Shown here piece by piece: positions 12,543-54,736 of a stretch of 64,000 nucleotides of DNA. The position numbers and the translations under genes are program-made. Within the stretch, counting starts at the first letter, position 1, and each line of letters begins with the position of its first letter. The stretch is taken from positions 124,001 through 188,000 of the forward strand of contig NZ_CP118181.1 in NCBI RefSeq assembly GCF_028748145.1, in the 5' to 3' direction. This stretch comes from Entomospira culicis. Its GTDB lineage: Bacteria; Spirochaetota; Spirochaetia; WRBN01. Under the pieces are notes generated by a model that searched no databases, had not been told where the DNA came from, and saw only the letters and a list, made by a program, of their open reading frames with translations.

Positions 12543-14192
12543 ATGGATCTTGATGATATCATGAAAGATTTTGACGAATTTGGCGAGGATGCACCTCTGG
12601 ATGATGCGCTTCCTAAAGCCGTGCCTGAGTACAGCGAGCTTAGTCCTGCTAAGGAGATTCCCGAGGCGCTCAAGGTGGAGCTACGTAAGCGCGCGTTTAA
12701 TGAGATCACCGAATTTACCCGTCCGCCTGCGCCTTTATTCGACGACCCGCTCTACTACAAAACTGTGCTAAAAGATGAGGGCGACATTGCGGTGCGCTTA
12801 CATGATACGCTCACCAAGATGTTTAAGAGTACCGACGCTGGCGAGAAGCTTGAGTTAAAAAATCGTATCATCCCGATTTATTGGGAGCTTCATAAGCAGT
12901 TGATGTTGAAGTCGCTAGAAGATGGCGTACCAGAGCCTAAGCAACTGGCGGTGCGCTATGGTGCAGTCTTGCCAAATCTTATCGGTAAAGAGCATCGCGA
13001 GGTGTTGAGCGAGATTATCTGGGAGAACAACACCGGAGAGGCGGTCTGGTATTGCGATGAGTGGGTGAAGATGGTCGCCGAGGGTAAGGTGAATCGCCTT
13101 GCTACTGATGAAGAGGTTACCAGCCGTAAGGGCGATGTGGGGGTGGAGATTGCGCGTCTTAGAAGCAAACTTGATAAGTTGACTGGTACTAAGGATGCCA
13201 TGGCAGGCTTTATGCAGAATCTGGAGCGCGAGCGTCAAGAGATGATGGAGCAGTTTAACACGCTAAGCACTAAGCTTGCCGAACAGCACATTTCGCATCG
13301 GCTAGAGGGGGTGCACCTTCCCTTTGATGAGGAACAAAAAAGTGCTATCACCCAACTGGCTAGCGCGCTTAAGAACATTACGAATATGTCGAAGAATGTG
13401 GAGCTTAATTATAACAAATATCTTGAGCTTCTTGCCGATATTGACAAAGTAGAGAGCGACCTTGAGCGTTTAAGTAATGGTGCGCCCACGGTGGATAATA
13501 GCCTCGCTGAGAAAGAAGCCGGACAGATTGCTGTCTTGGCAAAGATGTGTACGGGGCGTCGGGGAAATCACTACCCGATCTTGGCAAGTCAGTTCTTTAT
13601 GGCGCGCATCGCCACGATTGCTACGCGGGAAAACGTTATCAAAACCATGGACGAGATTGAAAAGATCGATGTGGGCATCTTTCGCCGAGAATTTAGACGC
13701 CAAGTTAATCGTATTCCCCCTCATGTGATTATTATCCCTTCTTATGGTAATAGTGGTGTCTGTTGGGAGCCTTATGAGCGCAACAATAAGGCAACTAGTC
13801 GTGGTCGTATTGCCATTCCGATGTTTCCAGGCGACTTGCGCATGGCGGTTATCATTGCTTTGGGGGATCTACGTTGGCAACAGGCCAAAGAGATGGCGGC
13901 GCACTACTGGATGGAAGAGGGCTTAACGGGTGGGTTCTTTCAGTGGTTCTCGGGAGAGAAGATGCGTGGCGATGTGCGTATGACCTTTATCGAAAATTAT
14001 GTTTTGTGGATTAGCAAAGAGAGCGAGGGCATGCAAAAGCTTGAGCGTGAGGTGCGTGGTATTTTTTGGCGTAATATGCCCTTTAGCTTGGAGCGTCGTG
14101 AAAAATTAAAAGATCGAGGCTTTGTTTACAACCAGCTCTACATCAACGACCAAAATCGCCCCGGTGCTTTTGATCCTGTCTACCCCGATTAA
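12543..14192 (+). CDS. unknown 549-residue cytoplasmic protein
   Basis: I do not recognise this protein. It has no signal peptide and no membrane segment. The first ~60 residues are acidic and Pro-containing (probably disordered). Residues about 60-200 are helical. Residues about 200-320 have heptad-like leucine, glutamate and lysine spacing and probably form a coiled coil. The C-terminal ~230 residues are a mixed domain with a conserved-looking tryptophan-rich stretch (GDLRWQQAKEMAAHYW; EGLTGGFFQWFSGEK). AAGGGAG lies 8-9 nt before the ATG, and codon use matches the neighbours, so it is a genuine resident gene. It is flanked by its own intergenic regions and is probably monocistronic. Confidence 0.8.
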   Translation: MDLDDIMKDFDEFGEDAPLDDALPKAVPEYSELSPAKEIPEALKVELRKRAFNEITEFTRPPAPLFDDPLYYKTVLKDEGDIAVRLHDTLTKMFKSTDAGEKLELKNRIIPIYWELHKQLMLKSLEDGVPEPKQLAVRYGAVLPNLIGKEHREVLSEIIWENNTGEAVWYCDEWVKMVAEGKVNRLATDEEVTSRKGDVGVEIARLRSKLDKLTGTKDAMAGFMQNLERERQEMMEQFNTLSTKLAEQHISHRLEGVHLPFDEEQKSAITQLASALKNITNMSKNVELNYNKYLELLADIDKVESDLERLSNGAPTVDNSLAEKEAGQIAVLAKMCTGRRGNHYPILASQFFMARIATIATRENVIKTMDEIEKIDVGIFRREFRRQVNRIPPHVIIIPSYGNSGVCWEPYERNNKATSRGRIAIPMFPGDLRMAVIIALGDLRWQQAKEMAAHYWMEEGLTGGFFQWFSGEKMRGDVRMTFIENYVLWISKESEGMQKLEREVRGIFWRNMPFSLERREKLKDRGFVYNQLYINDQNRPGAFDPVYPD

Positions 14193-47574: not shown

Positions 47575-47907
47575 ATGATGAAGAGAAGCGTATGGGGATT
47601 TTTATTCATTCTATCAACAATGAGTTTGCTTGGAGCAAATCAACAGCCAGAGACACAAGGCTATGAGGAGCGTAGAACCAATAACGGTACATTGCAGTAC
47701 AAAGCGATTGATTCTAACGGTGATGGTCAATTTGACACGTTCTACTACTATGATGCGAAAGGTTTGCTCGAGCGTCAAGAGATTGATAGCGATCATGATG
47801 GACGTATCGATATCATTATTCATTACCTTGATGGCGTCTATATCGTGATGATAGAACGAGATGTCGATGGCGATGGCACCTTTAGAGAGAAGCGACGCTT
47901 TAATTAG
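47575..47907 (+). CDS. small exported protein with three calcium-type loops
   Basis: 110 residues with a signal peptide (about 1-20, SLLGA). The mature part carries three DxDxDG-type loops: DSNGDGQFD, DSDHDGRID and DVDGDGTF, spaced about 26 residues apart. These resemble the calcium loops of EF-hand or dockerin-like and thrombospondin type 3 repeats. It probably binds Ca2+ in the periplasm or at the surface. It could also act as a small adhesin fragment. No family name is certain. The promoter places the transcription start at or next to the ATG. Confidence 0.68.
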   Translation: MMKRSVWGFLFILSTMSLLGANQQPETQGYEERRTNNGTLQYKAIDSNGDGQFDTFYYYDAKGLLERQEIDSDHDGRIDIIIHYLDGVYIVMIERDVDGDGTFREKRRFN

Positions 47908-49062: not shown

Positions 49063-49098
49063 AATTGTTGATTGTATTCTAATTGTTGATTGTATTCT
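49063..49098 (+). repeat. 18-bp tandem repeat reaching the methyltransferase stop
   Basis: Two exact copies of AATTGTTGATTGTATTCT (49063-49080 and 49081-49098), followed by a diverged start of a third (AATTGATGATG). The second copy contains most of the stop codon of the minus-strand methyltransferase gene. Confidence 0.9.
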
Positions 49099-50050
49099 AA
49101 TTGATGATGCGTTTATTGAGCGCTTTTTTTATCTCTTGCGCAATCGCATGAATGACGCTAACCACTACAGAGTTTCCTGCTTGTGTGTAGAGTTTACTCT
49201 GTGCAATGAGAGGAAGCCTAAACTCTTTAGGAAACCCTTGGAGGTTAAAGCACTCTCTTGGCGTAAGCTTTCGGATGCCTAATGGGGTCTTAACAAGAGG
49301 AACATTATGCCCACCAGTGCCCATATTAGCCGTAAGCGTGGGACATAATCCTGATTTATTTTCACGCACATACTGACGACGCCATTGATAAAGTGTATCA
49401 ATACGTTGCATTTCTGCTTCTAAAATAGGGTAAAAGTCATTCTTCTCGCTGGTGTAGTAATACTTCTCGTCAACCTTATCTTGATAGTTGATAAGATCGC
49501 TAAGTTGCGTGGTCAGTTCCTGTGGTTTGGGAAAGTCAAAGTGAAAGTAATGGTCTTTTTTTCTAAATGCTACGATGTAAATACGCTCTCTATTTTGGGG
49601 GATATTTCCGTAATGCGCCGCATTAAGCACTTGATATTTAACAAAATAACCATTAATCTCTAAAGCATCAATGATGATACGAAAGGTTTTGCCCTGATCA
49701 TGTCCTACAAGATTTTTCACATTCTCTAAAAAGAGAATAGAAGGCTTTTTTGCTTCAATGATTTTTAAAAGATCAAAGAAGAGGTTGCCACGTTCATCGT
49801 AGAAGCCTTTTCGGTAACCAGCAACAGAAAAAGCTTGACAAGGAAAGCCAGCTAATAAAATATCAGCATCGGGAATCGTCTCTATGTCTAGGGTGCGGAT
49901 ATCTGCTTGAATGAGTGGATTCGTGAAGTTTGCACGATAGGTTTGGGCTGCATAGCCGTCGATCTCATTTGCCCAGATGGCTTGAAATCCGGCTTGTTCA
50001 AAGGCTAAGTCTATGCCTCCGACGCCTGCAAAAAAACTGATGGTAGTCAT
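49097..50050 (-). CDS. DNA (cytosine-5) methyltransferase
   Basis: 317 residues. C5-cytosine methyltransferase with motif I FFAGVGGIDLAFEQAGF, motif IV PCQAFS (catalytic Cys), motif VI ENVKN, motif VIII QNRERIYIVAF, motif IX RKLTPRECFNLQGFP and motif X QAGNSVVVS. The target-recognition region lies between VIII and IX (about residues 185-255). I chose ATG 50050, 8 nt after AAAGG; GTG 50059 is less well spaced. No restriction nuclease adjoins it, so it may be an orphan. It looks more A/T-rich than its neighbours, lies between tRNA genes (Gln and Pro) and ends in a tandem repeat, all consistent with acquisition. Confidence 0.93.
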   Translation of the reverse strand: MTTISFFAGVGGIDLAFEQAGFQAIWANEIDGYAAQTYRANFTNPLIQADIRTLDIETIPDADILLAGFPCQAFSVAGYRKGFYDERGNLFFDLLKIIEAKKPSILFLENVKNLVGHDQGKTFRIIIDALEINGYFVKYQVLNAAHYGNIPQNRERIYIVAFRKKDHYFHFDFPKPQELTTQLSDLINYQDKVDEKYYYTSEKNDFYPILEAEMQRIDTLYQWRRQYVRENKSGLCPTLTANMGTGGHNVPLVKTPLGIRKLTPRECFNLQGFPKEFRLPLIAQSKLYTQAGNSVVVSVIHAIAQEIKKALNKRIIN

Positions 50051-50134
50051 CGCCTGCACCTTTACGTTTTACAAAAAAGGTTTTATGACATGCTGATATT
50101 GTCAACTGGCTAAGGGGTGGGAGTACATAAAAAA

Positions 50135-50248: not shown

Positions 50249-52552
50249 CTAGCTAGAGAAGCGTTTGAGCTCTTCTTCAACAAGGTGAAAGAAGCTGCCT
50301 TTGGGGTAGCGATGTTTGGCATCGGGCGGGCTTACGTTGAGGTCGCTAAGCAGGGCGATGGCTTGGTGGATATGGGTGCAGGGCCAGAGGTGGAAGCGTT
50401 TTTCGGTGATGGCTTGGATAATTTCGGAAGAGAGTAGCAGGTGTTGGATGTTTTGCGCAGGCAGAATGACACCCTGTTCGCCGGTGAGTCCGCGCTGTTG
50501 GCAGAGGGTAAAGAAGCCTTCGATCTTTTGGGAGATACCACCGATGGCTTGGAGTTCGCCATGTTGGTTCATGCTTCCGGTAATGCCGATGCTCTGTTTG
50601 AGCGGGATGTTACCGATAGCGGAGAGGATGGTAGCGACTTCAGCGGCGGTGGCAGAGTCGCCCTCTACGCCATCGTAGGTCTGCTCAAAGGCAAGGCTAG
50701 CGCTTACGCTCAAGCTGGTGTAGCGCCCAAGTTGTTGACGGATATAGGCATCCGCGATGAAGGCCCCCTTGTCGTGGATTTCGCCAGAGAGACCCGCCTC
50801 ACGCTCAATGTTGATCAATCCATCTTTGCCGGCGGCGGCGGTGGCACTAAGCAGGGTGGGTAGCCCATAGCTCTCTTGGGCAATATCGATAACAACCAGC
50901 GCGACAACCTTACCCACAGCCATGCCTTGCGTGGGGATGTGGACACTTTCAAATTCGATCTCTTGAAGCATTTGTCGCCATAAATGAGCCTTCTGTTGAC
51001 GATCCCAGAGAATGGCCTGCTGGATGCTCTCTGGGGTGAGTGGTGGGTTAAAGAGCGTGAGATAATGTTGTATCGGTTGCAGTAGATCGAATTCGGTGCT
51101 GATGGTTTTACGATTCTCGCTGATGTGGATAAAGTGGCGTATTAACGGCTCGGTAATGGCGCTATCGATGATTGCCTGTGGGGCGTAGCTAGAAAGTTGC
51201 TGGGTAAGCCAGTGTTGGTAGGTGCCGAGGATGGTTGGCGTGTGGAGCACTTCGCTTTGCCATAGAATAAAGATAGGAAAGAGGCGTTGGAGATCGGCAT
51301 CTTGGTAGAGGATGGTTTCGTAGAGCAGGGGAGGGGCAATTAGCACGATACGCGAAGTAAGCGGGGTGAGGATGGTGGGGAACGTGGCTTGCTCGGCGAC
51401 GAGGGAGAGGCTCTGGCTATGGAGCATCTCTTTAAAGGAGAGCCACGTATCGTTTTGACGTAAGAGGTCTGGGAGTTGTATGAAAACGACACTTTGTGGA
51501 TGACGCAAGAGGAGTCCGGGTTCCAGTTGTAATCCACTCTCTTTGATGTCGTAGCTTCCCCATAGGTTGTGGATGTCGTCATAGGCAACCCACAGTGAGG
51601 CTTGATTTCGGCTATGAATGCATTGCACTTGGATGGGGTGGGGCATCGCCTCAAAGAGGGTGAGATGATTGGGGGATGGGGTGAAGTGTAGTGTGTGGAC
51701 AAGGGCTTCTTGCACCCGTGTAAGAAAGTTGAGGAGATCGGTTTGCTGGAGAGTGTCGGTAAACGTATGAAAGTGCTGATTAATTTGATTGATGCTATAT
51801 TGACGGATGTGTTGATGAAAGCGCTCTTCCCAAGTTAGCTCTTGTTGACGAATGACTTTAATCGCCTCTTGCCAGCGATGAAGAATCGCACTATATTGTT
51901 GTTGAATGCTCTGCCACTCGCTGGTGGTGAGCTCTTTTTGGTAGTAAAGATGGTCAATCTCTTCAAGGCTGTAGAGGTTCTCTTGGTGCATGACTTGAAA
52001 TTTAGGAAAGGCTTTGAAGCGTAAATTCTCTTCTTCGACAATGTAGAGCTGGAAATTTTTCGCCAAAGATTTGATGGGGGTGAGCAATTGTTGCTCTAGC
52101 CGTAGAAGATCTTTGGTGTAATTTTCCTCTTGTTGAAGAATAGAGCTCTGTTGCGGGATATTGAGGATGAGCGTTTGCAGGCTCTGGGTGAAGAGGCGCA
52201 CATCGGTTAGGAGGCGCTCGGCCTGATTTTGGGGAAGACGCAGAAGCGTGGGTGCTTGCATCGGGGTAGGCGCAAGCGGAAACGCTGGGTAGGTGAAGAT
52301 AAGATAGCTGATGGTCTCTTGGTTTGTGTGGGGAATTTCATTGGTTAGAAAGGATTGATAGCCCGCCGTAGGTGGGGCAACGAGGAGAAAGGGATGGCGA
52401 GGAGGTTGTTTTAGCCATGCATGAAAGGTGGGGAGAAGCGAAGGTTGTGTAAGAGCGATCGGGTGCGCGGTTTCGCTGTGATCGACGATAGGGAGGGCAA
52501 AGGAGGCTTGCTCAGGGCTAAGGGCTTGGGGTATTGGGTTGGTATTGTTCAT
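50249..52552 (-). CDS. Lon-like protease without a Walker A motif (LonC-like)
   Basis: 767 residues. The C-terminal ~190 residues are a Lon-type protease domain with the catalytic dyad Ser633 (VEGDSATAAE) and Lys676 (GGISQKIEG), 43 residues apart, exactly as in E. coli Lon. The N-terminal region resembles the AAA_32-type Lon-family domain, but the Walker A site reads APPTAGYQS (59-67) with no GK[ST]. I also see no clear Walker B, so ATP binding seems lost, as reported for LonC enzymes. A long helical insert (about 120-280) fits the LonC type. No classical Lon N-domain is present. It probably degrades unfolded proteins without ATP. The ATG at 52552 has no Shine-Dalgarno. Confidence 0.82.
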   Translation of the reverse strand: MNNTNPIPQALSPEQASFALPIVDHSETAHPIALTQPSLLPTFHAWLKQPPRHPFLLVAPPTAGYQSFLTNEIPHTNQETISYLIFTYPAFPLAPTPMQAPTLLRLPQNQAERLLTDVRLFTQSLQTLILNIPQQSSILQQEENYTKDLLRLEQQLLTPIKSLAKNFQLYIVEEENLRFKAFPKFQVMHQENLYSLEEIDHLYYQKELTTSEWQSIQQQYSAILHRWQEAIKVIRQQELTWEERFHQHIRQYSINQINQHFHTFTDTLQQTDLLNFLTRVQEALVHTLHFTPSPNHLTLFEAMPHPIQVQCIHSRNQASLWVAYDDIHNLWGSYDIKESGLQLEPGLLLRHPQSVVFIQLPDLLRQNDTWLSFKEMLHSQSLSLVAEQATFPTILTPLTSRIVLIAPPLLYETILYQDADLQRLFPIFILWQSEVLHTPTILGTYQHWLTQQLSSYAPQAIIDSAITEPLIRHFIHISENRKTISTEFDLLQPIQHYLTLFNPPLTPESIQQAILWDRQQKAHLWRQMLQEIEFESVHIPTQGMAVGKVVALVVIDIAQESYGLPTLLSATAAAGKDGLINIEREAGLSGEIHDKGAFIADAYIRQQLGRYTSLSVSASLAFEQTYDGVEGDSATAAEVATILSAIGNIPLKQSIGITGSMNQHGELQAIGGISQKIEGFFTLCQQRGLTGEQGVILPAQNIQHLLLSSEIIQAITEKRFHLWPCTHIHQAIALLSDLNVSPPDAKHRYPKGSFFHLVEEELKRFSS

Positions 52553-52562
52553 ATTATCATCT

Positions 52563-52630
52563 AGTATAAAGGAAAATTCCGCTTATGGCAAGGGTCAAAA
52601 CTTGACAAAAGTGGGCAATCCTTTTATCAT
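52563..52630. promoter_or_regulatory. back-to-back promoters of Lon-like and acyltransferase genes
   Basis: Minus strand: TTGCCA (52591-52586), a 17-bp spacer, and TATACT (52568-52563), 10 nt before ATG 52552. Plus strand: TTGACA (52602-52607), a 17-bp spacer, and TATCAT (52625-52630), 6 nt before ATG 52637. Neither start codon has a Shine-Dalgarno sequence. Confidence 0.72.
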
Positions 52631-52636
52631 AAAAGA

Positions 52637-53563
52637 ATGAAAGAACAAGAAGAGCAATTGGCAAGCGTGGAGAATAAGTTATATGGATTTTTCCGCGCAA
52701 CGAGTGTAGAGCAGACAGAGAAGCTACTGAGCCTTCTGCCTGAAGATGTAACCGAGGTGGTTACGCCAGAGACCGTCTATCGTGCGGGGAATCCTGAGGC
52801 TAGAGAGACTGCCGATCTATTAGCGCGCGGGCTTATCTTGCCTGGGAGTAAGATTATCGATGCGCACCATTTGGCGGAGAGTTGGAAGTTGGCACAGTCG
52901 GGAAAGTCGGTGCTGGTGCTCTCGGAGCACTTCTCCAACTTCGATCTCACAAATATCACGTACCTCGCCGATAACGATCCTGCGATTGGGAAGGGCTTTG
53001 CCGACAATCTTATCGCTATGGCTGGGGTCAAGTTAAGCCGTGATAGCGATCGGTTTATTGCAGCCTTTATCCAAGTGTACAATCGCATTGTAATTATGCC
53101 CTCGCGTTCGTTGGATAAGCTCTCGGGTGAGGAGCTCAACGAGTACAAGAAGATGAACCTCTCGGCCATTAAAGAGATGACCAAGCGTAAAAATAGCGGA
53201 CATCCTATCTTGGTCTTTCCTACCGGTACGCGTACGCGCCCCAATCAACCCGATACGGCTAAGGCTATCCCCGAGATGTACAGCTATATGCGTGGTTTTG
53301 ACTATATTCAATTTTTGAGCTTAAATGGCTTAGTTCTCAAGGTAAGCGATATCTCGATGAGTGCTGATGAGCCTCAACCTAACGTGGTGATGATGGGCGC
53401 TGCTAAACCGATTAGTTCGCAAGAATTTATGGAGAACGCCGAAAAGAATTGCCCGCAAGGCATGGAGATGCGCGACTTTGTGCCTATCTATCTCATGCAA
53501 CAGCTCCACAGCTTGCACGATTATGTAGAACCGATGCGTCTTGCCGTAGATGGCGCGTTTTAA
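52637..53563 (+). CDS. glycerolipid acyltransferase (PlsC/GPAT-like)
   Basis: 308 residues. The acyltransferase HxxxxD motif is H98-FSNF-D103 (SEHFSNFD), and the second motif is FPTGTRTR (about 194-201), replacing the usual FPEGTRS. No strong transmembrane helix is visible, unlike PlsC, so a soluble or peripheral glycerol-3-phosphate-type acyltransferase is likely. It acylates glycerol-phosphate or lysophosphatidate in membrane lipid synthesis. The promoter puts the transcript start at the ATG itself. A TTG (about 52658) preceded by GAAGAG is an alternative, but ATG 52637 keeps the whole helical N-terminus. Confidence 0.78.
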   Translation: MKEQEEQLASVENKLYGFFRATSVEQTEKLLSLLPEDVTEVVTPETVYRAGNPEARETADLLARGLILPGSKIIDAHHLAESWKLAQSGKSVLVLSEHFSNFDLTNITYLADNDPAIGKGFADNLIAMAGVKLSRDSDRFIAAFIQVYNRIVIMPSRSLDKLSGEELNEYKKMNLSAIKEMTKRKNSGHPILVFPTGTRTRPNQPDTAKAIPEMYSYMRGFDYIQFLSLNGLVLKVSDISMSADEPQPNVVMMGAAKPISSQEFMENAEKNCPQGMEMRDFVPIYLMQQLHSLHDYVEPMRLAVDGAF

Positions 53564-53638: not shown

Positions 53639-54736
53639 TTACTTTTGGTAAAATTGAATAGTCTCAAGCATTGTTTCTTTGTGGTGCTTGATATCGTTGA
53701 TAGACTTGATAGTCATTTTAGAGTCTGTTTTTTCCCCAGTTTCTTTATTAATGGGGAAAAGAGTGATACTTTTCTCCCCGTTATATGCGGATGAACTTTC
53801 GGATATGAAATGGACTATCGGCTGTCTACGGTTATCTTGCCATAAAATAGAAAATTGTCCTACAGCATCGCGGTATGCAATATCTTTTGCACTTACTTCG
53901 TCTTTAAGTAAGTTGACAACTTTTTTATAGAAAGCTAACTCTTCTTCAGTGGTTTCAATACCCTTTTTTTCGGTTGTAGATCCTTGAATTGGATCAGTGT
54001 CGGGCATGGTAGCCCTCGCGATACGAGCATTAAAATTTTCATTCAACAATTGAATCCATGCCGTTTTCACTAGCTCCGTATAACCTGGTAGGCGCTTGTC
54101 TGTAACCTTGGGGCCTTTAATTCTCGTGTAGAGAATAGAGACAAAATCCTTTTCTGGATTCTCAAAGTCATTTTTAATTTTTTCTTTGAGCAAGGCAAGA
54201 TATTTAGAGCGCTCGGCATACTCGATGAGTTCATCCTGATTAAAGGCATCTTTACGAAATCGTTTAAGATCATTGATCACATCATCGTTGAGCTTTGTGA
54301 TATCAGCGAGTAAAAAATGCCCAGTATCCATTTTGTTATCTTCATCTAAATCACTAAAAAAACGATATTCCTTACCATTTGTTAGTAACGCAAATTTTGC
54401 TTTTTCTGTTGAGAAGTAGCGATATAATTGACCACTATGTTTGCCAAGGTTGGCATCTGCTTTTTTACATTCTATTAACAAAATTGGAGAGAAATTATGC
54501 ATAATAGCAAAGTCAACTTTCTCTCCTTTTTTATCTGGAGTATCCGCCGTGTACTCGGGCATTACCTCCAGAGGATTTGCAGTATCGTAGCCTAATACTT
54601 TGATAAAGGGGCGAATAATTGCCGCTTTTACGGCTTCCTCGTGAGGTAAAACTTTCATAATACCCTCTTTTCCACCGGCTTCTTCGTACTCTTGGTATTT
54701 TTTGCCTAGCGCATATAAATCTTCACTAAATCCCAT
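53639..54736 (-). CDS. solitary type I restriction HsdR-N-like nuclease domain protein
   Basis: 365 residues. The N-terminal ~170 residues match the HsdR_N pattern: a helical start, then a PD-(D/E)XK-type nuclease core with KVDFAIM (Asp) and LLIECKKA (Glu-x-Lys), followed by QLYRYF and FALLTNGKEYRFF. There is no helicase motor, so it is not a full HsdR. The C-terminal half (KLLKDEVSAKDIAYRD..) has no family I know. AAGGAG lies 8 nt before ATG 54736. The sequence is A/T-rich, like the methyltransferase, and could be acquired. Similar lone genes are common and often annotated as type I restriction enzyme. Confidence 0.75.
   Translation of the reverse strand: MGFSEDLYALGKKYQEYEEAGGKEGIMKVLPHEEAVKAAIIRPFIKVLGYDTANPLEVMPEYTADTPDKKGEKVDFAIMHNFSPILLIECKKADANLGKHSGQLYRYFSTEKAKFALLTNGKEYRFFSDLDEDNKMDTGHFLLADITKLNDDVINDLKRFRKDAFNQDELIEYAERSKYLALLKEKIKNDFENPEKDFVSILYTRIKGPKVTDKRLPGYTELVKTAWIQLLNENFNARIARATMPDTDPIQGSTTEKKGIETTEEELAFYKKVVNLLKDEVSAKDIAYRDAVGQFSILWQDNRRQPIVHFISESSSAYNGEKSITLFPINKETGEKTDSKMTIKSINDIKHHKETMLETIQFYQK

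Follow-up and report, generated by a model that had tools for sequence, protein, structure and literature searches.

The minus-strand gene at 50249-52552 of the 64,000-nucleotide stretch of Entomospira culicis DNA that we analysed (the window) encodes a LonC-type protease that, by homology, would be ATP-independent, and whose vestigial AAA+ half would be drifting under strand-biased mutation; we give this reading a probability of roughly 80%. Judged from its sequence, this is one gene with two halves that evolve at very different rates. The presence of LonC is in itself ordinary, and what is new here is the depth of the loss in its N-terminal half; no publication title in the literature searched (titles only) names erosion of a LonC N-half. 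The features concerned are as follows, L005 being the sister protein in the tree described below.

50249..52552, minus strand: lonC, an open reading frame of 767 amino acids with an ATG start and no internal stop
52563..52591, minus strand: predicted lonC promoter, TTGCCA-17-TATACT (10/12 consensus matches; -10 box 10 nt before the ATG)
50948..52552, minus strand: eroded AAA-like N-half, residues 1-535 (from column counts, identity, composition and branch lengths)
52352..52378, minus strand: putative Walker A counterpart APPTAGYQS, residues 59-67 (register set by hand)
51638..52252, minus strand: helical insertion between the Walker regions, approximately residues 101-305 (common to most of the family)
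51467..51496, minus strand: Walker B counterpart QSVVFIQLPD, residues 353-362 (from alignment)
50333..50947, minus strand: Lon protease domain, residues 536-740 (117/205 identical to L005; 49/55 conserved columns kept)
50654..50656, minus strand: codon of catalytic Ser633 in EGDSA (invariant in alignments A1 and A2)
50525..50527, minus strand: codon of catalytic Lys676 (invariant in alignments A1 and A2)
50480..50503, minus strand: LonC-specific insertion 1, CQQRGLTG, residues 684-691 (fits CX3GLX[G/E]; consensus from excerpts of PMC3391209)
50408..50422, minus strand: LonC-specific insertion 2, IIQAI, residues 711-715 (fits phi-X2-A-phi; consensus from the same excerpts)

The first-pass annotation of this DNA had proposed a LonC-type protease without a recognisable nucleotide site, and the motifs, the protease insertions, the tree clade and the model fold all agree with it. 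The LonC subfamily dates from 2012 (PMC3391209, excerpts). The solved structures closest to the E. culicis protein are those of MtaLonC, which phmmer matched to it at 4.6e-56 and which a profile of alignment A1 matched with an E-value of 6.4e-142. Two Pfam models scored over their curated cut-offs, AAA_32 (4.3e-6) at residues 342-427 and Lon_C (8.9e-7) at residues 630-731. The dyad spacing of 43 residues between Ser633 and Lys676 that had been read from the letters was confirmed, and it is identical to that of S582 and K625 in MtaLonC, where K625 is the catalytic Lys (PMC3391209, excerpts) and S582 was taken from structure entry titles. In excerpts of PMC3391209, CX3GLX(G/E) and phi-X2-A-phi are given as two protease insertions unique to LonC, the latter sitting in helix alpha-5. 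The alignment against LonC and LonB proteins that the annotation had suggested as a check bore the assignment out, since both insertions share alignment columns with those of MtaLonC. The insertion after the catalytic Lys was present in 27/27 LonC rows shown in the 36-row protease alignment (in variant form in L072 and L106) and in 0/9 rows of LonA, LonB and spore Lon.

A tree of these 36 protease domains, to which 10 of the 26 same-class rows and 15 of the 80 named rows contributed, placed the E. culicis protein inside the LonC clade with MtaLonC (support 100/100), with L005 as its sister (100/99) and the LonA of the same genome (L001) in a separate clade (100/99). Membership of LonA was rejected on this separation, on the lack of LonC insertions in LonA, and on Asp632, which precedes Ser633: according to excerpts of PMC9569914, Asp precedes the catalytic Ser in LonB and LonC, and Pro does so in LonA. 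LonB was likewise rejected, as the protein has no intact Walker A or B and its clade is that of MtaLonC. LonC membership is therefore supported for each feature examined, namely the dyad, the insertions, the loss of AAA+ motifs, the clade and the predicted fold.

The annotation had also held that such an enzyme would be unusual in a spirochaete, which proved incorrect: a LonC match was found in 30 of 41 same-class genomes, E. culicis included (threshold 1e-5). From these 30, the motif and rate tables omit E. culicis LonC itself (L004), L012 and L022, whose genera are already represented by L010 and L018, and L028, for which a wrong ORF start had been chosen, leaving 26 same-class relatives. 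The scan of named genomes gave at least 582 relatives from the first 590 candidate stretches; the 80 named loci kept come from many bacterial phyla and include two archaea (L050, L107), and alignments A2 and A3 took 55 of these 80 rows. Among the 80 named loci, the best hit was a named spirochaete (L036, L065 or L093) for 24 of the 26 same-class relatives, the exceptions being L027 and L032, and that of E. culicis LonC was a Desulfobacterales protein with 29% identity. In the window, lonC is flanked on one side by a C-5 cytosine DNA methylase (49097-50059) and on the other by a separate protein with an HsdR N-terminal domain (53639-54736; both by Pfam). Neighbouring genes offered no clue to function: within 17 kb of G001, the genome of L005, no ORF save lonC matched window proteins (L144). 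A homologue (40-41% identity) of the gene at 12543-14189 lies at most ~6 kb from lonC in all four other same-class genomes compared (L145, L146, L147 and L148); in the window this gene sits 36 kb from lonC, and the 17 kb around the G001 lonC (L144) hold no homologue.

The central observation of the first pass, that the Walker A region reads APPTAGYQS without Gly-Lys-Ser/Thr, was confirmed at residues 59-67, where relatives have a P-loop. We infer that APPTAGYQS is the Walker A counterpart from a register set by hand against G-x-x-G-T-G-R-x-T, using as a ruler the distance to the QP that comes after Gly in relatives (by hand count 23 residues in E. culicis LonC and 24 in most relatives); MAFFT offered an alternative register with NEIPHTNQE under the P-loop column, and a P-loop profile left residues 1-98 unaligned. 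A pattern search of all 767 residues found neither [AG]x4GK[ST] nor a loop of the G-x(2-5)-G[KR] type, so a nucleotide site elsewhere in the protein, which had been named as a counter-indication, was rejected. Residues 1-535 contain just five glycines (at 64, 332, 340, 346 and 443). At the Walker B position stand Gln359-Leu360 and no acidic pair.

In the 108-row alignment the P-loop column is present in 101 of 107 relatives, and the remaining six are outside the Walker A counts. In these 101, the first Gly is found in all 101, the second in 92 and the third in 94, and the Lys place holds a basic residue in 98 (57 Arg, 41 Lys), the other three having Leu (2) or Gln (1); the strict pattern [AG]x4GK[ST] is met by 18. 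Where Walker B is expected (GG followed by four hydrophobic residues), 0/107 rows have an acidic pair: Asp comes directly after the hydrophobics in 25 rows and Glu in 5, and one place further on no row has an acidic residue. Many relatives do carry an acidic pair two residues past this position, and ATP independence is therefore only putative across the wider family. Loss of the canonical Walker B thus looks family-wide, with loss of the P-loop as the distinction of the E. culicis protein. Damaged P-loops in other rows (GPSAPEREE in L029, GEDSSARHH in L031, GDESTARMS in L093) indicate that P-loop erosion is recurrent among relatives, if less deep than in E. culicis LonC, which we expect to be without nucleotide binding.

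The loss reaches much further. At 33 N-half columns conserved at 90%, E. culicis LonC keeps 10, as compared with a median of 32 and a minimum of 21 (L029) in the 101 other rows and with 23 in MtaLonC; N-half alignment is uncertain at such divergence, and misalignment depresses these counts somewhat. In the protease, 49 of 55 such columns are kept, as against 44 in MtaLonC and a median of 54. Identity to L005 is 9/75 over residues 1-100, 21/201 over 101-305, 22/128 over 306-435 and 11/99 over 436-535 (10-17% in the N-half), against 57% in the protease; for the tail it is 10/27. Over residues 306-435 the mean identity to other rows is 0.199, and the lowest other row has 0.327. When branch lengths were fitted to the protease topology for 34 of the 108 rows (L029 omitted), the terminal branch of E. 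culicis LonC measured 0.41 in the protease and 3.46 in residues 306-535. The latter is the longest of the 34, followed by that of MtaLonC (1.85), and the ratio of 8.4 is the highest (median 2.6; the 6.1 of L019 comes from a very short branch). By these measures, the extra loss extends beyond Walker A and spans the whole N-terminal half. The long insert noted at first pass is real (approximately residues 101-305) and is not special, since most rows of A1 and MtaLonC have one; it is mostly missing in L011, L013, L014, L019, L020, L029 and L031.

The composition of the N-half has shifted as well. In tables restricted to N-halves of at least 350 residues, a filter that removed L029 and other short rows, the E. 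culicis N-half is the poorest in Gly of 104 rows, with 0.9% against 3.0% in the next row and a median of 5.3%, and the richest in both Gln (11.0%; the runner-up has 7.7%) and His (4.9%). The plus strand is G-rich in 16/16 4-kb bins of the window (GC skew 0.09 to 0.29), which places lonC on the C-rich strand. The third codon positions of minus-strand window genes are C-rich. At codon positions 1, 2 and 3, the GC skew is -0.37, -0.35 and -0.38 in the N-half and +0.17, -0.08 and -0.52 in the protease. A negative first-position skew in the N-half was found in E. culicis LonC alone among 103 rows (next +0.02), and the nine other rows with protease third-position skew below -0.3 all have a first-position N-half skew of at least +0.16. 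Genome-wide composition was rejected as the cause: over the whole gene the first-position skew of lonC is -0.21, the lowest of 42 window ORFs of at least 200 aa (next -0.13), a mechanical list that likely includes spurious ones. The skew would thus be mutation bias showing where protein selection is weak. Composition-matched shuffling of the N-half produced 19.8 stops on average, or 11.6 with codon positions kept, and zero stops in 0/2000 shuffles of each kind; the frame would be kept open because an upstream stop would remove the downstream protease.

An adaptive origin of these changes is possible but unlikely. It would have positive selection rebuild the N-half as a glycine-poor, Gln/Pro/His-rich collar for substrate recognition, which would suit the extreme Gln and His contents, a length unchanged relative to L005 and the confident helices predicted across most of residues 110-290 and 400-535. 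What speaks against it is that the C-over-G skew of the N-half is alike at the three codon positions, as mutation bias predicts, and that the protease of the same gene lacks this skew at position 1. Drift under mutation bias is the reading that we prefer.

Far less probable is replacement of the N-half by unrelated DNA, a frame-shift, or sequence errors. The low N-half identity to L005 and the unmatched P-loop profile would be expected in these cases, but the N-halves of relatives match lonC in the same frame (best 1.23e-21), which led us to reject replacement and frame-shift; other frames gave 12 short, weak hits (best E 0.032), AAA_32 is recognised within this half, and the model matches the LonC fold over its full length.

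The AlphaFold model (mean pLDDT 81.1, pTM 0.67), which leans on the alignment of relatives, has 4fwd (MtaLonC) as its best match (Z 40.5, 515 residues aligned, 3.1 A); full-length LonC 8k8v gave Z 36.6 (660 aligned, 4.0 A) and TonLonB 3k1j Z 25.9. It also bears on whether ATP is still bound, and needed, through a rearranged site, which we consider highly improbable. The MtaLonC hexamer still binds six nucleotides although its loop is partly degenerate (PMC3391209, excerpts), and in E. culicis LonC Gly64 and Ser67 stand at plausible loop places, but this protein has no P-loop pattern, its Walker B place is Gln359-Leu360, and near the putative Walker A site residues 52-62 have pLDDT below 50 (37-70 for the blocks from 21 to 110). 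A control model of L036 from the same 56-row set reached 81-96 for the blocks spanning 81-140, with the strand-loop-helix of the P-loop visible. The low values in E. culicis LonC agree with a lost pocket and may reflect divergence alone. A dying gene, in which the protease too is becoming a pseudogene, would explain the extreme N-half divergence but is scarcely credible, given an intact dyad, more conserved protease columns than in MtaLonC, an ordinary protease branch and a frame open across 767 codons.

As to expression, the leaderless start claimed at first pass is plausible for E. culicis lonC, with a predicted -10 box 10 nt from the ATG and no Shine-Dalgarno sequence, but it is absent in L005. 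The latter carries AGAGGAAA before its ATG, which means that the feature is not common to the nearest relative. The divergent neighbour, an acyltransferase-like gene (52637-53563), has TTGACA-17-TATCAT 6 nt before its ATG and equally lacks a Shine-Dalgarno sequence, which a simple pattern finds at 25 of the 35 window starts examined. Five promoter-like sites were found in the searched stretch, where 2.5 were expected. Both messages diverging from the gap at 52563-52630 may be leaderless, given promoter-like sites very near their ATGs. The starts at 47575 and 57204 lack a Shine-Dalgarno pattern and have -10-like boxes (TAGACT and GATAAT, the latter by eye) ~6-9 nt upstream of the ATG.

By analogy with MtaLonC, E. 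culicis LonC would assemble a ring-shaped, passive chamber in which the Ser633-Lys676 dyad would cut unfolded or unstructured polypeptides without ATP. The AAA-like half would, in this lineage, have lost the last features of its nucleotide pocket together with most residues conserved elsewhere, and would probably serve the chamber just as scaffold or collar, drifting under the C-over-G mutational bias of its strand and kept in frame by the protease encoded downstream. The near-equal lengths of E. culicis LonC (767 aa) and L005 (766 aa) suggest that the N-half is still needed. At even odds, this would be a second stage of motor loss, in which ATP hydrolysis was lost first, in the family, and the nucleotide site afterwards, leaving a near sequence-free scaffold beside a fully constrained protease. 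If true, a LonC chamber would require neither ATP nor a nucleotide-stabilised ring. This touches on why LonC retains an ATPase fold once ATP hydrolysis is gone: MtaLonC binds nucleotide (PMC3391209, excerpts), and taken alone it leaves a structural role for nucleotide possible. With the pocket lost and the protease and length kept, E. culicis LonC would, if it assembles and cuts, show nucleotide and the conserved AAA residues to be dispensable.

Compared with known systems, the LonA of the same genome shares the Ser-Lys Lon protease domain, but it has Pro before the Ser, lacks the LonC insertions and falls in a separate clade. Archaeal LonB (TonLonB, 3k1j) shares the Asp before the catalytic Ser (PMC9569914, excerpts) and a related predicted fold, whereas its Walker motifs are intact (PMC3391209, excerpts) and the 7-residue insertion that follows the catalytic Lys in LonC is missing from LonB rows. 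L005, from the only other genome of the order compared (G001; the order is thus represented by two genomes), is the tree sister, 57% identical in the protease and of nearly the same length, yet it keeps GSNGLGKQT, its first 540 residues contain 5.4% Gly, and its first-position skew is +0.39. The closest counterpart is MtaLonC (the TTC1975 peptidase, MEROPS S16.007; 4fwd, 8k8v), which according to excerpts of PMC3391209 forms a ring without ATPase activity and cuts unfolded substrates whether or not ATP is present, leaving folded ones uncut. It has both LonC insertions, the dyad spacing of 43, the Asp before the Ser, a degenerate AAA-like half with a helical insertion and, by the model, the same overall fold; it differs in retaining GPPSLGKHE, with Gly and Lys, and 23/33 N-half columns, where E. 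culicis LonC has APPTAGYQS and 10/33.
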